A stretch of DNA of 20,248 nucleotides from a virus: the IMG/VR virus record IMGVR_UViG_3300034044_000038, positions 1-20,248 of that record; one strand, 5' to 3'. The notes under the pieces were generated by a model. The model was not told the DNA's origin. It made no database searches and worked only from the letters and a program-made list of their open reading frames with translations. Position 1 is the first letter of the stretch. Each line of letters opens with the position of its first letter. Shown here in pieces: positions 1 through 19,923 of the stretch. Position numbers and translations under genes: made by a program.

Positions 1-33
1 GTGATACCACATACAGGATTTCTCTAGTAATTT

Positions 34-84
34 GAGAGGTTTTTAAAATTTAATCTAATTTTTAGATTTGCTAGCTAACCTCTC
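34..84. repeat. Nested inverted repeat (possible stem-loop)
   Basis: GAGAGGT at 34-40 pairs with ACCTCTC at 78-84. Inside it, AATCTA at 52-57 pairs with TAGATT at 63-68 around a five-base loop. Together they could form a two-level hairpin on either strand. No clear U-tract follows, so it is not an obvious terminator. It lies downstream of the minus-strand gene 184-441 and could be a 3' structure of that transcript. No gene is seen in bases 1-183. Confidence 0.35.
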
Positions 85-183
85 GTATTTGTAAACATTG
101 AAGTTTTCATTACTATTGTGTCAATTCACAATTATAGTTATTAATATATTAAATAATATTGATATTTTTTAATGTAAACAAGT

Positions 184-441
184 TTAAAAAGGTTTTGTAT
201 TTTCTCTCCTTTTTAATTCTTTTATGTAATGATGATAACCAAGTTCTTTTTTTGCATCTTCCCCATACAAAATTTCTTCATCATACCACATTTCATCATA
301 AGTATGACCACCACCATACATTACTTTTAAACCCTCTTCAGCTTTTCTTTCTATAAGGTTTATTATGTTTTGTAAGTGACTTAAGTTTAAATCCTTTAAC
401 AAAATCTTTTCTCCATTTTTTGTTACATGAGTGTATTCCAT
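184..441 (-). CDS. Small conserved-type phage protein of unknown function
   Basis: An 85-residue soluble protein starting at an ATG after an AT-rich leader and ending with TAA. The N-terminal half (KNGEKILLKDLNLSHLQNII, then an IERKAEEG helix) and the C-terminal half (a D/E/Y-rich stretch with YDEEILYGEDA and a basic end) look like one compact helical domain. I recognise this layout, an opening K-N-G-x-K-I-L-L strand, a helix and then a Tyr/Glu-rich helix, as common in small proteins of many phages, but no function is established. It has no signal peptide and no membrane span. It stands alone on the minus strand with long non-coding DNA upstream, and is probably an early gene. The overlapping plus-strand frame at 159-356 is compositionally implausible. 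Confidence 0.75.
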   Translation of the reverse strand: MEYTHVTKNGEKILLKDLNLSHLQNIINLIERKAEEGLKVMYGGGHTYDEMWYDEEILYGEDAKKELGYHHYIKELKRRENTKPF

Positions 442-997
442 AATATTATAATTTTAAAAGGTTGATGAATGATAAAAATAAAAGAAATAAAATCTCTCCA
501 AGTTTTAAAGTAATAAATTCTTAAAGTAAAGAAGGAAAGAAAGCTATAGTGTAGGTAATAGATAGCCCAGTTTTAAAAACTGATAATTAGTAATATGATT
601 TATTATTAAGTGAATGAAAATTTTGATGAGGAAAATAAAAGGGTAAATAAGTAGGTTGGAGGTGTGTCATCTTCTCTAACTTCTTCACAATCAATTGATT
701 AAACTCTTTTTTTTACTCTTTTTCTTTCACTTTTTTGTGTATTTCTTTCTATTTTAGATAGATTTTCAAATCTTTTTTCAAATCTTTGATTAGATTTACT
801 GCTTATTAAGCAACTTAGGGCAAAGTTATAACTTTTTTTTTTAATAATCAAGTCTTTTTTAAAAAAAAATGAAAAAAAGTTAATTATTTGCTTAAATAGA
901 TTATTTAATAGATTAATCAGTAGATTTAATAGACCAATTAATCAATGGGCTTATATAAGGGTTATAAAAAAGGGGTTAAATAGGGCTTTATTTAGAT
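442..997. other. Gene-free AT-rich stretch
   Basis: I see no convincing gene here on either strand. The stretch has pyrimidine-rich runs (about 702-790), long T and A runs (833-842, 861-869) and a short palindrome at 568-582. A K/E/R-rich minus-strand frame ending with TAA at 699 has no ATG and is not called. Near 957-989 there are three related short direct words (AGGGTTAT, AGGGGTTA, AGGGCTTT). A 13-base word, AAGAAAGCTATAG, occurs at 537-549 and again at 1142-1154. Confidence 0.5.
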
Positions 998-1066
998 AAA
1001 AAAACCTTCCCTTTGTGTAATTGAGATATGGATATTGTCAATTATATAGTTTACACATCGGGAAGG
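998..1066 (-). terminator. Long stem-loop with U-tract (possible minus-strand terminator)
   Basis: CCTTCCC at 1005-1011 pairs with GGGAAGG at 1060-1066. The pairing continues inward after a two-base mismatch (TGTGTAA with TTACACA) and again with AATTGA and TCAATT. Read on the minus strand, the stem ends in GGGAAGG followed by seven T (998-1004), the shape of an intrinsic terminator with a large branched loop. No coding sequence lies immediately upstream on that strand, so it may end a non-coding or leader transcript. It could instead be an unrelated cruciform. Confidence 0.45.
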
Positions 1067-1069
1067 CAC

Positions 1070-1131
1070 CACAACTTTTAACTTATTTTAATATGAATTG
1101 CATATTAAAAAGGTTTTTGAGTAGAGTTGTG
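1070..1131. other. Nested hairpin: CACAACT...AGTTGTG enclosing a perfect 10-bp stem
   Basis: CACAACT at 1070-1076 pairs with AGTTGTG at 1125-1131. Inside, TTTTAATATG at 1086-1095 pairs perfectly with CATATTAAAA at 1101-1110 around the loop AATTG. With the adjacent stem at 1005-1066 and smaller hairpins at 1223-1245 and 1346-1372, it makes a dense block of secondary structure without a convincing gene. Confidence 0.45.
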
Positions 1132-1308
1132 ATTAACTTTTAAGAAAGCTATAGGTTAATAAGGACCTGTAAAATATTAAAGTTTGAATAGATTTTTTAA
1201 TTCATACTTTATTATCTTTTGTTAATCTTTGTAACATTAAGATTAGGTAATGAATACAGAGTGTTTCACGGGTTTTAAAGTCGTTCTGGTGGTCTTTGTT
1301 GGTGTTGA

Positions 1309-1333
1309 GTGGTGTTTTGGTCTTTATGAGAGC
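1309..1333 (-). promoter_or_regulatory. Motif copy with core CATAAAGACC
   Basis: On the minus strand this reads GCTCTCATAAAGACCAAAAC. It is the weakest of four sites sharing a CT-x-ATA-x-GACC core with sites at 1877-1901, 2305-2329 and 2572-2592. A second AAAGACCA lies nearby at about 1289-1296. It sits at the upstream end of the hairpin-rich gene-free stretch on the same strand. Whether it is a promoter, an operator or chance is unknown. Confidence 0.25.
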
Positions 1334-1345
1334 TTTTGCATTATT

Positions 1346-1372
1346 ACACACCATTTTCACACTTTGGTGTGT
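1346..1372. other. 7-bp hairpin ACACACC / GGTGTGT
   Basis: ACACACC at 1346-1352 pairs with GGTGTGT at 1366-1372 around a 13-base loop. It lies in a locally G/T-rich patch (about 1260-1380) that differs in composition from its surroundings. The 64-codon minus-strand frame here (1202-1396) begins inside the U-tract of a terminator and has no protein-like pattern, so I treat this as non-coding. Confidence 0.35.
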
Positions 1373-1396
1373 GTGGTTTGCATTTTTAAAAAACAT

Positions 1397-1422
1397 AAAA
1401 AAGCACTACCGTTAGGTAGTGC
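1397..1422 (-). terminator. Intrinsic terminator of the 1433-1840 gene
   Basis: An eight-base-pair stem, GCACTACC (1403-1410) with GGTAGTGC (1415-1422), closes a four-base loop that reads TAAC on the minus strand. It is followed on that strand by six T (1397-1402) and, after three bases, six more (1388-1393). It starts about ten bases after the TAG stop of the minus-strand gene. This is a textbook Rho-independent terminator. Confidence 0.9.
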
Positions 1423-1432
1423 CTTTAGTGGT

Positions 1433-1840
1433 CTAAAGCTCAGCTTTGTTTTCAGGCTCTGTTTCAGGTGTAACAGTTGCTCTTTTCTTAATGCCTGAAA
1501 GAGCTTTTTCCATTTTAAGCTCTGCAAGAGCTTTAATATAGTAAGCTCTAATTTCAGGGTCTTTTTCACTTTTAACCAAAGCTTCCATAACATCAATTTG
1601 GTCGTCACCTGGTACATAATATCTTGTACCATCTTGGTTAAAAGCAAGCTCTGCTGTTTGACCGATTGGTTGTGTTGTGAAATACAATGGCTTACCATTG
1701 TCTGATAATATCACTTCATAACCTTCAGCTTCTTTAATTTTAGCATATTGGTCTAACTCTTCTTTAGTACCATTAACTTCATAGGCAAATGTTAAATTTC
1801 CTGCCTTACTTCTGTACTGATTTACTTTTACTAATTTCAT
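1433..1840 (-). CDS. Small acidic/helical phage protein, unknown function
   Basis: 135 residues from an ATG after an A-rich leader to a TAG stop just before a strong terminator. The N-terminal half is strand-rich (VNQYRSKAGNLTFAYEVNG, then a helix and an LYFTTQPIG segment). The C-terminal half is helical (residues about 80-120) with an E/P/T-rich tail. The layout resembles small proteins I have seen in Bacteroidetes phages that open with a VN-x-Y-x-S-K-x-G-N strand, but I cannot assign a function. A nucleic-acid-binding role is a guess. Base composition is higher in G+C (35-42% in sampled 60-base lines) than the late genes (about 27%), suggesting different origin or expression. A copy of the AAAGACC motif lies 36 bases upstream of the start. 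Confidence 0.85.
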   Translation of the reverse strand: MKLVKVNQYRSKAGNLTFAYEVNGTKEELDQYAKIKEAEGYEVILSDNGKPLYFTTQPIGQTAELAFNQDGTRYYVPGDDQIDVMEALVKSEKDPEIRAYYIKALAELKMEKALSGIKKRATVTPETEPENKAEL

Positions 1841-1876
1841 AACTTTTTTAATTTTTAGTTAAACATTTATTTTTCC

Positions 1877-1901
1877 TAAGTGTGGGGTCTTTATAGAGCT
1901 A
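1877..1901 (-). promoter_or_regulatory. Repeated motif upstream of 1433-1840
   Basis: The minus strand reads TAGCTCTATAAAGACCCCAC, then ACTTA. It matches the site at 2305-2329 at 18 of 25 positions without gaps, including a shared AAGACCC core. Both lie just upstream of a minus-strand gene. It could be a promoter, an operator or a leader element. The sequence does not look like the usual Bacteroidetes TTTG / TAnnTTTG promoter. Confidence 0.4.
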
Positions 1902-1904
1902 TTT

Positions 1905-1932
1905 TTATAAAAAAGGGTGGTTACACCCTTTT
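1905..1932 (-). terminator. Intrinsic terminator with the stop codon in its loop
   Basis: AAAAGGGTG (1911-1919 on plus) and CACCCTTTT (1924-1932) form a nine-base-pair stem around a loop that reads TAAC on the minus strand. T residues follow on that strand. The TAA stop of the 57-codon gene is the first three bases of the loop, so the last codons of the gene form the ascending arm. The loop is identical to that of the terminator at 1397-1422. Confidence 0.8.
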
Positions 1933-2094
1933 AATTCTAATTACATTCAAATCCTTTATTGAAAAGGATTTGTGATAGAAGGTTTTAATTCTATTCAATC
2001 CTTTTACAAGTGCCTGACTGTTAGAGCTTGCCTTTAAGCTCATACTAATTCTTGCACCATTTTTTAATGATGCTCTTACTTTGAAATTTTCCAT
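1921..2094 (-). CDS. 57-residue basic protein, likely paralogue of its upstream neighbour
   Basis: Starts at an ATG preceded by AAAGAGAT and ends at the TAA in the terminator loop. The protein begins MENFKVRASLKNGARISM and ends NVIRIKRV; it is basic with no membrane span. It aligns without gaps to the protein encoded at 2107-2289 over about 37 positions. Shared positions include N-[FY]-K-V near the start, an N two residues after the first strand, and an A...A-L-x-K pattern in the helix. The two genes also share the leader word AAGAGATATG. The likely structure is a short strand pair followed by a helix. Function is unknown. The genes are 12 bases apart and probably co-transcribed. Confidence 0.75.
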   Translation of the reverse strand: MENFKVRASLKNGARISMSLKASSNSQALVKGLNRIKTFYHKSFSIKDLNVIRIKRV

Positions 2095-2106
2095 ATCTCT
2101 CTTTTT

Positions 2107-2289
2107 TTATTTATAAATACTATAACCAAAATTTACAACATATTTATCTATGTTGGGTTGAACGTGCTTAAACTTTTTAAAACTTTTTAATAAAGCACTA
2201 ACTCTGTTTAAAGCCTGTTGTTCAACAATAAGTTCATTACTATTTCCTATAGTAATATGAACTTTGTAATTGACAATTCTTGTTTTCAT
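2107..2289 (-). CDS. 60-residue basic protein, first of a tandem pair
   Basis: The first gene of the leftward transcript. Its ATG follows AAAATAAGAGAT, the same leader as its neighbour. It starts MKTRIVNYKVHITIGNSNEL and has a basic helix (ALLKSFKKFK) and a strand-rich end (YVVNFGYSIYK). It has no signal peptide or membrane segment. The gapless resemblance to the 57-residue neighbour suggests an old tandem duplication. It lies next to a putative origin/control region, which fits an early DNA-binding or regulatory role, but that is inference only. Confidence 0.75.
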   Translation of the reverse strand: MKTRIVNYKVHITIGNSNELIVEQQALNRVSALLKSFKKFKHVQPNIDKYVVNFGYSIYK

Positions 2290-2304
2290 ATCTCTTATTT
2301 TTAT

Positions 2305-2329
2305 TAAATGATGGGTCTTATCAGGGCTA
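2305..2329 (-). promoter_or_regulatory. Repeated motif upstream of 2107-2289
   Basis: The minus strand reads TAGCCCTGATAAGACCCATC, then ATTTA, 15 bases before the start codon at 2289. It matches the 1877-1901 site at 18 of 25 positions. It directly abuts the left arm of the 12-bp inverted repeat (2329-2340). Confidence 0.4.
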
Positions 2330-2566
2330 ATTGAGGGGTTATAAGTGGTTGCAATACAACATAGATATAACCACCATTATATTAATAACACAACCATATG
2401 ATAACCATTACAATATAGATATAACAATCATAATGAGTAGTGCCAAGCCTAAGCAAAGGCTTAAAAATATAGGTTGATAAACATTTATCCCCAACAATAA
2501 ATTAAATCTATGACTCTGAAATATTATTTGAAGTACCAAATTTAATCTAGGGGGAACCCCTCAATT
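2329..2566. repeat. 12-bp perfect inverted repeat flanking the iteron-like region
   Basis: AATTGAGGGGTT at 2329-2340 and its exact reverse complement AACCCCTCAATT at 2555-2566 are 214 bases apart. They enclose all the iteron-like repeats. In such AT-rich DNA a 12-bp match with a G4 core is unlikely to be trivial. Both arms lie next to copies of the GACC motif. Confidence 0.6.
2355..2431. repeat. Iteron-like direct repeats (three copies)
   Basis: ACAACATAGATATAACCACC (2356-2375) and ACAATATAGATATAACAATC (2410-2429) are direct repeats; extended to 23 bases they match at 20 positions. A looser middle copy, ACAACCATATGATAACCATT, lies at 2390-2409. Spaced direct repeats in a gene-free AT-rich region are typical binding sites for an initiator or repressor. 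Confidence 0.5.
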
Positions 2567-2571
2567 TTTTT

Positions 2572-2592
2572 TCAAGTGGGGGGTCTATAGGG
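2572..2592 (-). promoter_or_regulatory. Third copy of the GACC motif, in a G-run context
   Basis: The minus strand reads CCCTATAGACCCCCCACTT. It resembles the 1877-1901 site (CTCTATAAAGACCCCACACTT) with a two-base deletion. It is flanked by G-runs on the plus strand at 2578-2583 and 2590-2594. Confidence 0.3.
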
Positions 2593-2703
2593 GGAGATCT
2601 TCACATTCTCTAACACAAAACTAAAAAAATAGCCTTGGTTATTTTTATTATATTTTTTTAAATTTTCCAACTTTTTATATTATTTATTAACAATAGGCAT
2701 ATT

Positions 2704-2764
2704 TTTTTAACAGTTATTTTCATCAAAAAACAGCTTAAAACTTAGGTTTTTCAACTGTTAAAAA
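2704..2764. repeat. 12-bp perfect inverted repeat (possible cruciform)
   Basis: TTTTTAACAGTT at 2704-2715 is the reverse complement of AACTGTTAAAAA at 2753-2764. The 37 bases between can pair further through an A-run and a GTTTTT segment. AACAGTT/AACTGTT could be a protein-binding half-site pair. No terminator-type U-tract follows the stem. Confidence 0.45.
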
Positions 2765-2785
2765 TTGAAATTTGTATATATAGGG
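2757..2785 (+). promoter_or_regulatory. Possible promoter related to the 17-bp element
   Basis: GTTAAAAATTGAAATTTGTA followed by TATATAGGG shares TTTGTATAT with the exact 17-bp elements at 3797-3813 and 9173-9189, and has a similar TTAAA word upstream. It would drive the rightward operon from about 210 bases before its first gene. The match is partial, so this is tentative. Confidence 0.3.
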
Positions 2786-2832
2786 TTTGGGAGTGTGTTG
2801 CCGGATTAAAAAAAAAGTTGTAGATTTGTTGC

Positions 2833-2887
2833 AAAGAAAGAAAGAAAAAAAAGAAAAGAAGCAAAAGAAAAAAAAGAAAGAAAGAAA
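2833..2887 (+). repeat. Perfect homopurine mirror repeat (possible H-DNA)
   Basis: The left arm 2833-2857 is AAAG three times, then eight A, G and four A. The right arm 2863-2887 is the exact mirror: four A, G, eight A, then GAAA three times. The spacer is GAAGC. All 50 arm bases are purines. Perfect homopurine mirror repeats of this size can fold into an intramolecular triplex under superhelical stress. It lies about 110 bases before the first late gene. Confidence 0.85.
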
Positions 2888-2948
2888 TAATATTTCTTTT
2901 TAATCTAATTAAAAAAACAAAATTTAAAAAAAATTAATTAATTTTTAA

Positions 2949-2968
2949 TACGTATATAATAATACGTA
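2949..2968. promoter_or_regulatory. Paired TACGTA palindromes upstream of the late operon
   Basis: TACGTA occurs at 2949-2954 and 2963-2968, each within ATACGTA, with TATAAT between them (2955-2960). A G-run follows (2972-2977), and the start codon is at 2998. The arrangement suggests an operator or promoter for the rightward operon. Confidence 0.4.
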
Positions 2969-2997
2969 ATTGGGGGGTTTAATATTATTTAGAGTTT

Positions 2998-3348
2998 ATG
3001 ATTATAGAAGGTGGCATACACGGGATTTCAAAGATATTATATGAAATTGATTCTGTTTATTTATCTAAGTATTATGATTATAAATTTCCTAATTATTCTG
3101 ATTTAGATTTTGATGATTTTTCTTTTTATTTAAGAGCTGTTAATTATTATATTACTAATAAAGATTGTTCTTTAGAAGATTTTTTCAATCATTGTTTATC
3201 TGACAGGTTATTAAATGGTTGGATTTGCGGTAATGATTTTAATTTTAAGAGAGGTGTTAGTCCTTTTGTTTTGACTTATAAAGAATTAGATTCTAAAATG
3301 TTATTAAGATATGAATTGCTTTTATCAGTTATTAAAAGTTTTTATTAG
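2998..3348 (+). CDS. Unknown 116-residue protein, first gene of the rightward operon
   Basis: Starts at the ATG after an AT-rich leader and stops at TAG. It is soluble and unusually rich in Tyr, Asp and Phe (for example YYDYKFPNYSDLDFDDFSFY), and probably helical toward the C terminus. There is no signal peptide, no membrane segment and no motif I recognise. It lies 20 bases before the HExxH protein and is probably co-transcribed with it. It could be a partner of that protein, but only proximity supports this. Confidence 0.8.
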   Translation: MIIEGGIHGISKILYEIDSVYLSKYYDYKFPNYSDLDFDDFSFYLRAVNYYITNKDCSLEDFFNHCLSDRLLNGWICGNDFNFKRGVSPFVLTYKELDSKMLLRYELLLSVIKSFY

Positions 3349-3368
3349 CATAGTTGAAAATTATTAAG

Positions 3369-3776
3369 ATGCATAAGGTAAAGTATAAAAAAAATAAAAA
3401 CACATATTATGTAAGACTTGTTTTACCTTTATATAATATTTCTTATTATGTATTTGTTGGAGATACTATGTTAGATACTTGTAAATATTTTGATAAAGTT
3501 TTTAAAGGTAGTTTTTATTCAAAAGATCCAAATGTATATACTTCGGGTGCTTATTGTTCAAAGAGCATTTCTACAGAAGGTGATGTTTATTTTTCATTAT
3601 TATTTTCTAGAGAATTTTTAAAACAAAATAAAAATAGTTTAATTGCACATGAAGGTTTACATTTAACTTATTTTATTGGTGAATATTTAGGGTTAATTTT
3701 TGATATTGAAAATCATGAAGCTCAAACTTATATGTTACAAGATATAGTTAATAAAGTAACAAAAGTTCTTAAATAA
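3369..3776 (+). CDS. Small HExxH metalloprotease-like phage protein
   Basis: 135 residues from the ATG at 3369; a TTG at 3354 in the same frame is a weaker alternative. Residues 94-98 are HEGLH, a zinc-metalloprotease signature, within the hydrophobic helix SLIAHEGLHLTYFI. A second conserved-looking element, ENHEAQTYML, follows at 114-123, so Glu117 could be the third zinc ligand. I recognise this pattern, an HExxH helix followed by N-x-E-A-x-x-Y, in small phage proteins of unknown function. The N-terminal half is strand-rich. Peptidase activity is inferred from the motif only. It might process a virion protein or a host factor. It is followed by a promoter-like element and the tail block. 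Confidence 0.8.
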   Translation: MHKVKYKKNKNTYYVRLVLPLYNISYYVFVGDTMLDTCKYFDKVFKGSFYSKDPNVYTSGAYCSKSISTEGDVYFSLLFSREFLKQNKNSLIAHEGLHLTYFIGEYLGLIFDIENHEAQTYMLQDIVNKVTKVLK

Positions 3777-3796
3777 TTTTTATTTGTTTAAGATTC

Positions 3797-3813
3797 TTTG
3801 TATATTATATATA
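3797..3813 (+). promoter_or_regulatory. Exact 17-bp promoter-like element before the tail block
   Basis: TTTGTATATTATATATA ends 16 bases before the ATG at 3830 and is identical to 9173-9189. Both are preceded by TTTAA-x-GAT-type words and sit in short gaps ahead of gene blocks. It probably marks a transcription start for the tail genes. The recognising polymerase is not known. Confidence 0.6.
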
Positions 3814-3829
3814 TAAAGAAATTTTAAAC

Positions 3830-5353
3830 ATGGCTCAAGACAGTAATAATAATATAGAGGTTTTATTAAAGAAAGGTAAAGTAAAAAAAACTTTAGATAA
3901 GAATGATTATTTTATCCTTCAATCCTGGAATGATCGAAATGGAGGTTATAAAGATAAAATTGAAGAATATGCTATAAAAGCTTCCGATGTAGCAAGTACA
4001 CCTACTGTTGATACAAACACTTGGGATATGAGCAATGTTGCTTTTATAGATGGTATCAACGGTGATGATTCAAATGGTGTTTTAGGAGATGGCAACAAAC
4101 CTTTTAAAACAATTTCTAAAGGTTTAGAGTTTTCTGATAAAATAATTGTTAAATCTGATATTTTAATTTCTGATTATGTTAGGATTAGAGATAGGGTTGT
4201 TGATATTTGGTTTATGCCGAATACAAAAAGTTATAATTTAACTTTTAGAACAGAAGGTAGTGTATCTACTTTAAACTTATACAATTCAGGAAATGTTATT
4301 CATACAAATACTACTTTTTATAGTGTAGCAAATATAGGTTATTTAAATGTAACAGGGAGTGGTGATTTTGTAAATTTTCAAGGTATTTTAAGTTATTCGC
4401 TAAAAACTTGGTATGTGCATTTTGTTTTTAATAAGATGTATGATACAAGCTTGAATAGTGGTCATGTGTTATTTGCTTCTACAAATTCTGATTTTTATAT
4501 AGAAGGGGTTTCTATAAAAAGAGATGTAAGAAATAGTTCAGAAGCAATTTTTAATATTAGATCTAATGCTAAAGTAAGAGTTAATATAGAAGAAAAGATT
4601 CAAAGTAATGTAAGAATTTTTTATTTTAGAAATCAAAGTTCTAGTCTTTATACAGGTGAAACAAAAATAACAGTCCCTGAAATATCAGTTGTTGAAAGTT
4701 CTTATTATTATGTATTATCTGCTGCTATTGAAATACAGCAAGTTTCTTCGGGGTCTATCGAGTTTAATATTGATAAAATAAATAGAAGTAAGTTTAGTAA
4801 CCCTATAAATGATGGATTAATTTCAATGTACTTGATAGGTTATGTAGGAGATTGTAAAATTGATTTTAATAACACATATTTTAAAGATTTTAATAATTCT
4901 TTATTGTTTAATGTTAATTATTACAATATTGCATATTTTTTAAACTTTAATAACTGTCATTTTGATTTATTAGCTAATGTTAAATTTTGGAACGGGTTAA
5001 GTCCATCTTCTAATCAAGGTACACAAACTACAACGATAAGATTTGAAAATTGTTTTTTTGAACTAGACAAAACTTATTTTTCATTTGAAAATAGTTCTTA
5101 TTATTACTTTACAAATTGTAAAATTAAAGGAGATAACCCTATTGTATTTGAATTAAGTACCGGAGCTAATACTGCTGAATTATTCTTATATAATACAGTT
5201 ATAGAAAATACAAATAGCACTAACATGATTTCTAATTACGATTCTACTAAACATTCTGTAGGATTTCATGCAGTTATAGGAAGTTTACCACTAAATGCTG
5301 GAGTAGTTGATGATTTTGGTGGATATGTTAATAATACAAAAGTAAAAATATGA
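3830..5353 (+). CDS. Tail spike / tail fibre with beta-helix fold
   Basis: 507 residues. After a short N-terminal attachment-like region (1-65), residues 70-100 carry VAFIDGINGDDSNGVLGDG followed by KPFKTI. This is the entry motif that commonly precedes the right-handed parallel beta-helix in phage tail spikes. The remaining 400 residues are strand-rich, with repeated N, S, F and Y and short turns (for example FNNCHFDL and FTNCKIKG), as expected for stacked beta-helix rungs. There is no signal peptide. It probably recognises, and may degrade, the host surface polysaccharide; catalytic residues cannot be assigned by eye. The TGA stop overlaps the next ATG (ATGA), indicating translational coupling. 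The 17-bp promoter-like element lies immediately upstream. Confidence 0.85.
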   Translation: MAQDSNNNIEVLLKKGKVKKTLDKNDYFILQSWNDRNGGYKDKIEEYAIKASDVASTPTVDTNTWDMSNVAFIDGINGDDSNGVLGDGNKPFKTISKGLEFSDKIIVKSDILISDYVRIRDRVVDIWFMPNTKSYNLTFRTEGSVSTLNLYNSGNVIHTNTTFYSVANIGYLNVTGSGDFVNFQGILSYSLKTWYVHFVFNKMYDTSLNSGHVLFASTNSDFYIEGVSIKRDVRNSSEAIFNIRSNAKVRVNIEEKIQSNVRIFYFRNQSSSLYTGETKITVPEISVVESSYYYVLSAAIEIQQVSSGSIEFNIDKINRSKFSNPINDGLISMYLIGYVGDCKIDFNNTYFKDFNNSLLFNVNYYNIAYFLNFNNCHFDLLANVKFWNGLSPSSNQGTQTTTIRFENCFFELDKTYFSFENSSYYYFTNCKIKGDNPIVFELSTGANTAELFLYNTVIENTNSTNMISNYDSTKHSVGFHAVIGSLPLNAGVVDDFGGYVNNTKVKI

Positions 5354-9172: not shown

Positions 9173-9189
9173 TTTGTATATTATATATA
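9173..9189 (+). promoter_or_regulatory. Exact 17-bp promoter-like element before the lysis group
   Basis: TTTGTATATTATATATA, identical to 3797-3813, ends 19 bases before the ATG at 9209. TTAAAGATATAA precedes it. No terminator separates it from the upstream genes, so it may give an internal boost to transcription. Confidence 0.6.
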
Positions 9190-9526: not shown

Positions 9527-10342
9527 ATGATAAAAGGATTAGTAATATCAGGAGGAGGCTGTAAAGGAGCTTTTGCAGCAGGTATTTTGTATAAGAATAA
9601 AAAAGAATATGATAAATATTATGGGACTAGTACAGGTTCTTTAAATGTATTATTAGCTGCTGTTGGTAAATATGAAGAACTAAAAGAAAATTTTATAGTA
9701 AATAATGAAGACATATATGATATAAACCCTTTTAATAAAAAAAATAAATTATCATTATTTAAAGCTTTTATTAGATTTATAAAAAGAAAAAAAACAATAG
9801 CTACAACAAACAAACTTTTAAAAAAAATAAGAGAGCTTTATACTGAAGATGACCATAATAGATTAGAAGAAAAAGAAATCATAGTTACAGTTACTAACTT
9901 AACAACAAGAAATGTTGAATATAAATCGTCAAGCTCTTATTCTTGGGAAGATTTTACATATTGGGTTTGGGTTTCAACATTAGCATATCCTTATGCAGAA
10001 ACTGTGTTTATAAATGGTTATGAATATGGTGATGGAGGTTTTAGTGTTAATTTACCAATAAAGATAGCATCTGAAGATTGTGAAGAAATTGACACTATTG
10101 TCTTAGTTCCTGAAAAACAAAATGAAAACTTTGAAAATCAATCTATATTAAATGGTATTACAAGTATTGTACATTTATTACTTGCCACAAGTATGAATAA
10201 AGATATATCAAATGGTAAAAAAATAAGAAAAAGTAAAATCAATTGGCATTTTACACCTTATACATTAACAGCTTTATCAATGTATTTTGATAAAAAACAA
10301 ATGACTGAATGGTTTAATTTAGGTAAAACAGTAAAATTATAA
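9527..10342 (+). CDS. Patatin-like phospholipase
   Basis: 271 residues with the full set of patatin signatures. The glycine-rich oxyanion loop is SGGGCKGAF (residues 8-16). The nucleophile elbow is GTSTG (33-37), with Ser35 as the predicted nucleophile. The second half of the dyad is DGG (169-171), with Asp169 as the predicted partner. Patatins hydrolyse acyl chains from phospholipids. The N-terminal beta-alpha core looks complete, so it should be active. There is no signal peptide, so it would act inside the cell unless released by a holin. It lies just upstream of a membrane coiled-coil protein and a two-span holin-like protein, with which it overlaps or abuts, suggesting a role in membrane breakdown at lysis. 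It could instead act in entry as a virion enzyme. It is a less usual phage gene. Confidence 0.9.
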   Translation: MIKGLVISGGGCKGAFAAGILYKNKKEYDKYYGTSTGSLNVLLAAVGKYEELKENFIVNNEDIYDINPFNKKNKLSLFKAFIRFIKRKKTIATTNKLLKKIRELYTEDDHNRLEEKEIIVTVTNLTTRNVEYKSSSSYSWEDFTYWVWVSTLAYPYAETVFINGYEYGDGGFSVNLPIKIASEDCEEIDTIVLVPEKQNENFENQSILNGITSIVHLLLATSMNKDISNGKKIRKSKINWHFTPYTLTALSMYFDKKQMTEWFNLGKTVKL

Positions 10343-12465: not shown

Positions 12466-12878
12466 TGGTTAAATTAAACAAAATCCAAAAATCTGGTTAT
12501 ATGAACTTATGGGACATAGTTATGTTCCAGGTTCATATATATTGTATTTTAAATAATAAAAATTTATCAATATCTGATATTGAATGTATTACTTTATTGT
12601 CAATAAATGGAGAAATGGAATTGTCTGATTTTTGTAATATAGCTTGTGAATATGAAGAAAGAGATAGAGATCCTGAAAACTATTTAGAAAAAGCTGTTTT
12701 TAAAACTCCTCAATCTGTAAGAAATTCAGTTTCAAAACTTGAAAATTTAAATATAATTTTAAAAGAAGGAAAAAGTAAAAAAAAGATAAAAGTAAATCCC
12801 AATTTAAATATTGTTACTAAAGACAATATTTTTATTGAATTAAAATTTTTAAGAAAGAATGACTCCGAAAAACAATAA
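12465..12878 (+). CDS. Winged-helix-like DNA-binding protein
   Basis: 137 residues. The N-terminal helices (MNLWDIVMFQVHIYCIL, then SDIECITLLSI) are followed by KTPQSVRNSVSKLENLNIIL and KEGKSKKKIKVNPNL. The latter has the helix-turn-helix then basic-wing order seen in winged-helix regulators, with S-V-R-N-S-V-S-K-L as the candidate recognition helix. The assignment is by pattern only. It overlaps the HU/IHF-like gene by 20 bases, suggesting a paired role in DNA handling or late regulation. Confidence 0.8.
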   Translation: MVKLNKIQKSGYMNLWDIVMFQVHIYCILNNKNLSISDIECITLLSINGEMELSDFCNIACEYEERDRDPENYLEKAVFKTPQSVRNSVSKLENLNIILKEGKSKKKIKVNPNLNIVTKDNIFIELKFLRKNDSEKQ

Positions 12879-14878: not shown

Positions 14879-17086
14879 ATGAAAAGAAAACAAGATTATC
14901 CATTATTTATACCGACTTGGGAAAATGGTCAATGGGTTCAGGATACTGAATTTAATTCTTTAGAAGAATTTATTTCTTTTTTAGAATCACTATTTAAAGA
15001 ACCAGGGCAATATAATTTTGATGAAAGTACTATTTTATGGAAAGAACAGGCTTTAAATTATAATAAAAATGGATTTTATTGTAAAGCTCCTTTTAGAAGT
15101 AAGGATTTTATAAATTACTGGGATGATCAAAAAAGGAAATCAAGAATAGGAGTGATTTGGAAAAATAATGGTAACACTTGGTATTTAACAAGAAACTATT
15201 ATTTTTGGTTAAATTTTTTACCAATATTTGACAAAGAAAAAGGGATATATGATTTCCCTAATATTTGGGATGTTCAATATCATATGGCATTGTATGAAAT
15301 ATTAGCTGAATTAAACAATAAACACGTTGCTATTTTAAAGAAAAGACAAATTGCTTCTTCTTATTTTCATGTAGGTCTTTTAATAAATTATTATTGGTTT
15401 GAAGAAGGTGCTAAGTTAAAAATGGGAGCTTCTTTAAAAACTTTTATAAATGAAAAAGGTTCTTGGAAAATGGCTCAAGAATATTCAGATTTTTTAAATG
15501 AACATACTGCCTGGAACAGAGCACATAATCCAGGAAAAGTAATGGATTGGGAGCAAAAAATACAAATAACCATTAATGGTAGAGATATTTATAAAGGTCT
15601 TAAATCAACTTTAACAGGTCATAGTTTTGATAAAGATGCTACAGGTGGAGTTGGTGGACCTTGTCGTATATTCTTTCATGAAGAAGGAGGTATTGCACCT
15701 AAAGCAGATCAAACATATGAGTTCATGAGACCAGCTTTAAGTTCCGGAATGCTAACCACAGGATTATTTATAATTGCTGGTTCAGTTGGTAATTTAGATC
15801 AATGTAAACCTTTGAAAAAATATATATTAAATCCAGAAAAAAATGATTTTTACGCAGTAGAGTCAAATTTAATAGATGAAAAAGGAACCATTGGAAGGCA
15901 TGGGTTATTTATACCAGAACAATGGTCAATGCCTCCTTATATAGATGAATATGGAAATTCATTAGTTGAAGAGGCTTTACAGGCAATAATGCAACAAAGA
16001 GTAAAGTGGAAAAAAGATTTAGAACCTTTTGAATATCAATTGCGGATTTCACAAAAACCAACAAACATCAAAGAAGCTTTTGATTGGAGGTCTGAATCAA
16101 TTTTTCCACTTAATTTAATAACCCAACAGCAAAGAAGAGTTGATGATGGTTTATATCCTTATGAGAGAATTGAATTAAAAAGAAATTTAGAAAAAAACAT
16201 AGTTGTTAAAAAATCAGATAAACAACCTATAACTGATTTTCCTGTTAAAAAGAATATGGTAAACAAAGAAGGGTGTTTACTTGTATGGGAAAGACCTAAA
16301 GAAAAACCTGAATGGGGTATGTATTATGCATCTGTGGATCCTGTATCTGAAGGAGCAACTACAACTTCAGATTCTCTGTGTTCTATTTATGTATATAAAA
16401 ATTCTATAAGAGTTAGAAAAAAAAGAGAAGATGGGAGTTTTGAATATTCAGTTGAACCTGGTAAGATAGTTGCAGCATGGTGTGGTAGATATGATGATCT
16501 TAATAAGACACATGAGCAATTAGAATTAATAATAGAATGGTATAATGCTTGGACACTTGTTGAAAATAATATTGCTTCTTTTATTCTTTATATGATTGCT
16601 AAAAGAAAAAATAAGTATTTAGTACCTAAAGATCAAATATTATTTTTAAAGAATATAGGGTCTAATAAAACTGTATATGCTGACTATGGTTGGAAAAATA
16701 CAGGTAGATTGTTTAAAGATCATATGTTATCTTACACGTTAGAATTTTTAAATGATGAAATTGATCAAGAATTAGATGAAGATGGTGTAATTATAAATAG
16801 AACTTATGGTGTAGAAAGAATACCGGACCCTATGTTATTAAAAGAAATGTCAGAATATAGAGAAGGTTTAAATGTTGATAGATTGGTTTCTTTTGCAGCT
16901 TTAGTATCATTTATAAGGATACAAGAATCTAATAGAGGTATTAAAGAAGTTGAAGAAAAAACAGATTCAACTTTGGATAAGTCTAAAAATTTGTTTAACT
17001 TAAAGAGAAACCCTTTTGTTAATTTAGGAAAATCTAAATACAAAAAAACTAACACACATAAAAGAGGTTTTAGAAATTTAAAATAA
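14879..17086 (+). CDS. Terminase large subunit (TerL)
   Basis: 735 residues; the ATP-driven motor and nuclease that packages phage DNA into the prohead. N-terminal ATPase: a Walker-A-like segment LKKRQIASSY at 153-162, a Walker-B-like CRIFFHEEGG at about 262-271 with the catalytic Glu, and a coupling-type motif FIIAGSVGN near 297-305. C-terminal RNase H-like nuclease: YYASVDPVSEG at 482-492 (Asp487), WTLVENN at 558-564 (Glu562), and a further acidic site that I cannot pin. The Walker A is atypical, lacking the usual G-K-[ST]. The protein is long compared with many TerL proteins. It ends with a basic tail. The portal gene starts one base after the stop. The minus-strand frame at 16804-17106 is a shadow. 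Confidence 0.93.
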   Translation: MKRKQDYPLFIPTWENGQWVQDTEFNSLEEFISFLESLFKEPGQYNFDESTILWKEQALNYNKNGFYCKAPFRSKDFINYWDDQKRKSRIGVIWKNNGNTWYLTRNYYFWLNFLPIFDKEKGIYDFPNIWDVQYHMALYEILAELNNKHVAILKKRQIASSYFHVGLLINYYWFEEGAKLKMGASLKTFINEKGSWKMAQEYSDFLNEHTAWNRAHNPGKVMDWEQKIQITINGRDIYKGLKSTLTGHSFDKDATGGVGGPCRIFFHEEGGIAPKADQTYEFMRPALSSGMLTTGLFIIAGSVGNLDQCKPLKKYILNPEKNDFYAVESNLIDEKGTIGRHGLFIPEQWSMPPYIDEYGNSLVEEALQAIMQQRVKWKKDLEPFEYQLRISQKPTNIKEAFDWRSESIFPLNLITQQQRRVDDGLYPYERIELKRNLEKNIVVKKSDKQPITDFPVKKNMVNKEGCLLVWERPKEKPEWGMYYASVDPVSEGATTTSDSLCSIYVYKNSIRVRKKREDGSFEYSVEPGKIVAAWCGRYDDLNKTHEQLELIIEWYNAWTLVENNIASFILYMIAKRKNKYLVPKDQILFLKNIGSNKTVYADYGWKNTGRLFKDHMLSYTLEFLNDEIDQELDEDGVIINRTYGVERIPDPMLLKEMSEYREGLNVDRLVSFAALVSFIRIQESNRGIKEVEEKTDSTLDKSKNLFNLKRNPFVNLGKSKYKKTNTHKRGFRNLK

Positions 17087-19869: not shown

Positions 19870-19923
19870 AATCATTTTATTACCTTTTTATTAATAAAAT
19901 GATTTAAACTTAATTAGTTTAAA
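19870..19923. terminator. Two adjacent perfect hairpins after the portal gene
   Basis: A 13-base-pair stem, AATCATTTTATTA (19870-19882) with TAATAAAATGATT (19892-19904), encloses a pyrimidine-rich nine-base loop. Overlapping its 3' edge, TTTAAACT (19903-19910) pairs with AGTTTAAA (19916-19923) around TAATT. They start ten bases after the portal stop. Stems are AT-only or nearly so and lack a strong U-tract, so they may be weak terminators, RNA-processing sites or 3' stabilisers. Confidence 0.5.

Follow-up and report, generated by a model that had tools for sequence, protein, structure and literature searches.

A perfect homopurine mirror repeat lies in the divergent junction of a crAss-like phage fragment, and begins at the transcription start predicted for a Bacteroidota sigmaA-type promoter sequence. 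The repeat is real, statistically notable, lineage-specific, and sensibly placed. The explanation that we favour, tentatively and with somewhat less than even confidence, is that the repeat would supply the opening 55 nt (+1 to +55) of a 5' leader, carried by a transcript that this host-type promoter directs rightward, the tract itself having most likely grown by slippage.

The window—the whole stretch of DNA analysed here, 20,248 nucleotides—is a 20.2-kb virus record, and the following genes identify it as a fragment of a crAss-like phage:

14879–17086, rightward block: terminase, by match to a phage family
17088–19859, rightward block: portal, by match to a phage family

The families matched by the terminase and the portal are phrog_6681 and phrog_6547. 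The portal is about 23–26% identical to those of cr, csAss and Cellulophaga phi17:2 phages, and its top match among deposited phages is that of a Leptolyngbya phage (33% over 83% of the protein). The latter phage, L114 (PP438436.1), is listed with the cyanobacterium Leptolyngbya boryana as host and, upstream of the genes on its terminase side, carries a large cluster of tRNAs. The related terminase and portal, together with opposed early and late blocks, point to a member of the crAss-like phages (Crassvirales). One terminase relative belongs to a Chitinophagaceae MAG, but two others belong to unrelated MAGs, so the host is uncertain. No Shine-Dalgarno-like sequence was detected ahead of the ORFs of the window, which agrees with a host from the Bacteroidota, whose genes also lack it (PMC6847099). 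The rightward structural-side genes include a patatin-like phospholipase (9527–10342; Pfam E 1e-21).

Genes run leftward to the left of 2289 and rightward from 2998, so that positions 2290–2997 form a very A+T-rich divergent junction between the leftward genes and the rightward structural and packaging genes. The GC skew changes sign close to this junction, where gene orientation also changes. Two 29-nt direct repeats separated by 54 nt (CAATACAACATAGATATAACCACCATTAT, 83%) are located at 2352–2434, on the left of the junction. No tRNA is encoded in the window, which rules out a tRNA-type site, and no credible Rfam match was obtained within positions 1–4000.

The tract lies inside this junction, which bears out the placement before the rightward genes proposed in an earlier sequence-only reading. 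The architecture described there, a homopurine mirror of 25 + 25 nt around GAAGC, was confirmed by a mirror scan of the window, in which both arms are exact and contain purines only:

2833–2857, plus strand: left mirror arm, homopurine, AAAGAAAGAAAGAAAAAAAAGAAAA, exact
2858–2862, plus strand: spacer GAAGC, from the sequence
2863–2887, plus strand: right mirror arm, homopurine, the exact reverse of the left arm and not its complement
2841–2886, plus strand: 23-nt direct tandem repeat (2841–2863 and 2864–2886), 20 of 23 positions identical, read from the sequence

The runner-up exact mirror in the window has arms of 14 nt. No other exact two-letter mirror (arms of at least 15 nt, loop of at most 12 nt) was found in approximately 1.4 Mb of fetched related loci, some of which overlap. 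Within the mirror, A8 occurs twice at a spacing of 23 bp, and a further run, A9, lies upstream at 2808–2816. The unit of the direct repeat, AAAG-A8-GAAA, is mirror-symmetric by itself and is flanked by AAAG copies; the tract is also flagged as a low-complexity array, and a related repeat family, D2, was detected. Since the tract is both a mirror and a direct repeat, the two readings are inseparable here.

The sequence-only reading had argued that A-richness does not account for the mirror, and this holds, as shuffles preserving composition never produced arms of 25 nt. None of the 1500 samples drawn under each model of the 709-bp gap reached that length (maximum 17), and random samples of the whole window gave arms of 17 nt at most. 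When the tract itself is taken as the null, the chance of a perfect 25-nt mirror is about 0.0003–0.004: it appeared in 0 of 40000 permutations of its bases, in 121 of 40000 permutations of its A-run lengths, and in 5 to 87 of 20000 Markov samples of order 1–4 (87 at order 4). Simple simulations of tandem slippage and duplication yielded such a mirror in 0.3–2% of cases (0.003–0.02), more often than most shuffles did. Base composition is thus no explanation for the symmetry, and repeat growth accounts for it better, yet the mirror stays uncommon under every model. Given that the unit AAAG-A8-GAAA is self-symmetric, duplication alone generates much of the mirror symmetry. AAAG and A8G units were most likely multiplied by tandem slippage or by duplication to give the tract, and we regard its symmetry as partly a by-product of this growth. 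The symmetry itself is real, and one example proves no selection for it.

What is new relative to the earlier reading is a sigmaA-type promoter sequence immediately upstream of the mirror, which has a counterpart elsewhere in the window:

2798–2828, plus strand: predicted Bacteroidota sigmaA-type promoter (TTG at 2798–2800, N20, TAGATTTG at 2821–2828), by pattern match, with predicted +1 at 2833
821–851, minus strand (read from 851 to 821): near-identical twin promoter, TTG-N20-TAACTTTG, by pattern match

The first of these has a TAnnTTTG -7 element preceded, at about 20 nt, by TTG, and TAGATTTG ends 4 nt ahead of the mirror. The Flavobacterium -7 element spans positions -12 to -5 (PMC9723704; PMC6847099); by this spacing G 2828 is -5, which makes 2833, where the mirror begins, the predicted +1. 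On the plus strand, the promoter pattern is expected 0.04 times in the gap and about once in the whole window, and its link with the mirror was spotted post hoc. When up to 3 mismatches are allowed, the 23-mer TTAAAAAAAAAGTTNTANNTTTG is matched twice in the window, a count attained by none of 100 shuffles; with R at two positions, it is also present in nine viral contigs besides the window, and an ATG follows shortly downstream in five of these. Promoters of F. johnsoniae are AT-rich around -18 and -28, where motifs have been reported (PMC6847099), and the A9 tract corresponds to these. However, the refined -7 consensus of this bacterium is TAHHTTTG, with G virtually absent at -10 (PMC6847099). 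The twin TAACTTTG agrees with this consensus (no G at -10 or -9), whereas TAGATTTG departs from it by its G at -10, so 2798–2828 is classed as promoter-like rather than as a confirmed Flavobacterium-type promoter. Its -33 element is GTTG, not TTTG. Compared with Bacteroidota sigmaA promoters (TTTG / TAnnTTTG), the resemblance thus lies in TTG-N20-TAGATTTG just before the mirror and in the A-tract of the spacer, and the difference in the G at -10 and in the long purine leader from +1. No purine tract occurs at the +1 of the twin, or at +1 in the nine contigs with the 23-mer, so the tract does not belong inherently to promoters of this class.

As the tract begins at the predicted +1, it is probably leader sequence that is transcribed, and not a spacer that keeps the genome halves apart. 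Three features follow it:

2881–2899, plus strand: A-U hairpin AAAGAAAT-AAT-ATTTCTTT at the 3' end of the tract, by RNA folding
2998–3348, plus strand: first rightward ORF (116 aa), by ORF call, with a weak profile match to phrog_5154
3369–3776, plus strand: second rightward ORF (135 aa); it contains the motif HEGLH and matches, below threshold, the profile of a putative zinc peptidase family (DUF5700), phrog_1365

A leader starting at 2833 would measure approximately 165 nt; those of F. johnsoniae average 33 nt (PMC6847099). Its fold has a z-score of only -1.6 and the purine tract is mostly unpaired, which rules out a structured RNA.

According to the leader explanation, transcription would start at 2833 from the Bacteroidota sigmaA-type promoter in the early/late junction, and the host RNA polymerase would transcribe an initial run of A and G interrupted by one C. 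The resulting purine leader would be unstructured up to a weak A-U hairpin, beyond which the transcript would continue into the ORFs at 2998–3348 and 3369–3776. Transcription of middle and late genes by the host RNA polymerase has been proposed for crAss-like phages (PMC8375218). Since purines occupy the RNA-like strand of the tract, an R-loop or a triplex behind the polymerase would be chemically plausible, which is also in line with a review (PMC12887540). The sequence would permit triplex (H-DNA) or R-loop formation, with lineage-specific modulation of the promoter as the most that might result. A transcription-coupled DNA switch, in which firing of the promoter at 2798–2828 would drive the +1 to +55 mirror into a triplex or R-loop and thereby feed back on the promoter or prime replication where early and late genes meet in this phage lineage, has little probability in our estimation.

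The regions upstream of the terminase were compared in fifteen relatives, whose TerL proteins are about 60–65% identical; the top terminase relative in IMG/VR (69%) is on a contig that stops short of the junction. Their opposed gene blocks match those of the window, with gaps of about 70–380 bp where ORF calls are clear, versus 709 bp here. At the equivalent junction, all fifteen lack both the mirror and a purine tract, which rules out a conserved element and leaves the proposed role as a conserved early/late separator unsupported. The sequence-only reading would have been refuted by relatives that kept purine-richness and lost the symmetry; at these junctions even the purine-richness is gone, in a comparison that turned up nothing closely related to the junction itself. 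No DNA match to the junction was found among phage records, nor any protein relatives in IMG/VR for the ORFs at 2998, 3369, 5681, and 1433, nor a second viral contig where the left arm is preceded by TTGN. A promoter followed by a purine run was matched five times in the records of the relatives, at scattered places, two of these matches being the same site. These junctions point to a lineage-specific mirror, probably with no conserved function, and because the relatives lack it we read it as most likely a lineage-specific purine-rich leader and not a conserved switch.

Several of these observations would also suit a neutral low-complexity tract, a purine repeat grown by slippage in a long non-coding gap that would have no active promoter and no function. 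The relatives without the tract, its direct-repeat and AAAG structure, the slippage simulations (0.3–2%), and the strong A+T-richness of the gap all agree with it. However, the promoter sequence, its twin, and the exact placement at +1 argue against it, as does the rarity of a perfect 25-nt mirror in all models, and we consider it rather unlikely. Another alternative views the tract as an H-DNA element, where a triplex driven by negative supercoiling would stall or insulate polymerases between the genome halves. H-DNA requires a homopurine-homopyrimidine mirror repeat (Mirkin 1987, as cited in PMC12887540). The tract, a homopurine mirror with a short spacer, has the sequence for it, as the earlier reading had stated, the triplex itself being a prediction from sequence; its symmetry exceeds that of shuffles, and supercoiling is likely at a divergent junction. 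It shares with H-DNA-forming mirror repeats the long exact arms, the single all-purine strand, and the short spacer, but it differs from them in the predicted phage transcription start and the overlapping direct repeat. Fifteen related junctions manage without a mirror, and the pyrimidine strand is poor in C, the tract being mostly A, which would result in largely TAT triads. Such a role for the mirror is improbable.

An origin primed by an R-loop, of the T4 oriF kind, would involve firing of the promoter and a purine RNA that stays annealed to the pyrimidine template, with unwinding of the A+T-rich stretch downstream. T4 oriF and oriG consist of a promoter and a downstream A+T-rich unwinding element (PMC3016281), and the order of parts in the junction (promoter, purine tract, low-stability stretch from 2905) and the nearby change in the sign of the GC skew are reminiscent of them. 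The 60-nt stretch from 2905 is indeed among the least stable of the window (rank 30 of 20188), but those at 19892 and 9131 are as unstable, so the melting minimum is not unique, which differs from the T4 origins; a purine mirror at the latter is not described in PMC3016281. As the skew also changes just where gene orientation does, and the relatives lack the tract, an origin of this kind is as improbable as the insulating triplex. Slightly less probable still is an A-tract DNA element, in which runs of A would set promoter activity, either through bending or stiffening of the DNA or as binding sites for a nucleoid protein of phage or host. The two A8 tracts, the A9 tract upstream, and a weak HU-family match of the ORF at 12859, slightly below the Pfam cut-off, are compatible with this proposal. 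However, the spacing of the tracts is out of simple helical phase, the tract is not conserved, and it would be too distant from any start near 2975 for an UP element, a role that we reject for a later start.

The window holds two exact copies of a motif common to the relatives, both in gaps ahead of rightward genes, as well as a possible early-side element:

3797–3813, plus strand: late-promoter-like motif TTTGTATATTATATATA (then TA), exact, by motif match
9173–9189, plus strand: second exact copy of TTTGTATATTATATATA, by motif match
2545–2640, minus strand: tentatively equated with the G-rich early-side element of relatives, by a moderate alignment (mean column identity 50%)

The first copy, at 3797, does not come until about 910 bp downstream of the tract. 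Most of the fifteen relatives hold TTTGTATATT(A/G), a few bases, and TATA near the first rightward gene, and the motif is widespread in related crAss-like phages, mostly some 30–50 nt before start codons (L010, L035, L043, L045, L058, L081, L087, L090, L112, and others). It probably represents the late promoter of this phage group. The G-rich early-side element (GGGGTACCCC ... AGCTGGGGAGCAGA ... AACACACAA) is likewise shared by most of the fifteen and is conserved at the junctions of L087, L089, L097, L088, and L099, flanked by the leftward genes on one side and the late promoter on the other. The junction of the window resembles those of other crAss-like phages in its opposed blocks upstream of terminase and portal and in the late-promoter-like motif, and differs from them in its longer gap, the extra purine mirror, and the host-type promoter.

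With the mirror, a perfect repeat that has the sequence for H-DNA sits exactly at a predicted phage transcription start, which makes for a clean case to test. The promoter anatomy of the junction is the more general finding, and the late-promoter-like motif of these mostly environmental crAss-like phages is of broader reach than the mirror repeat.
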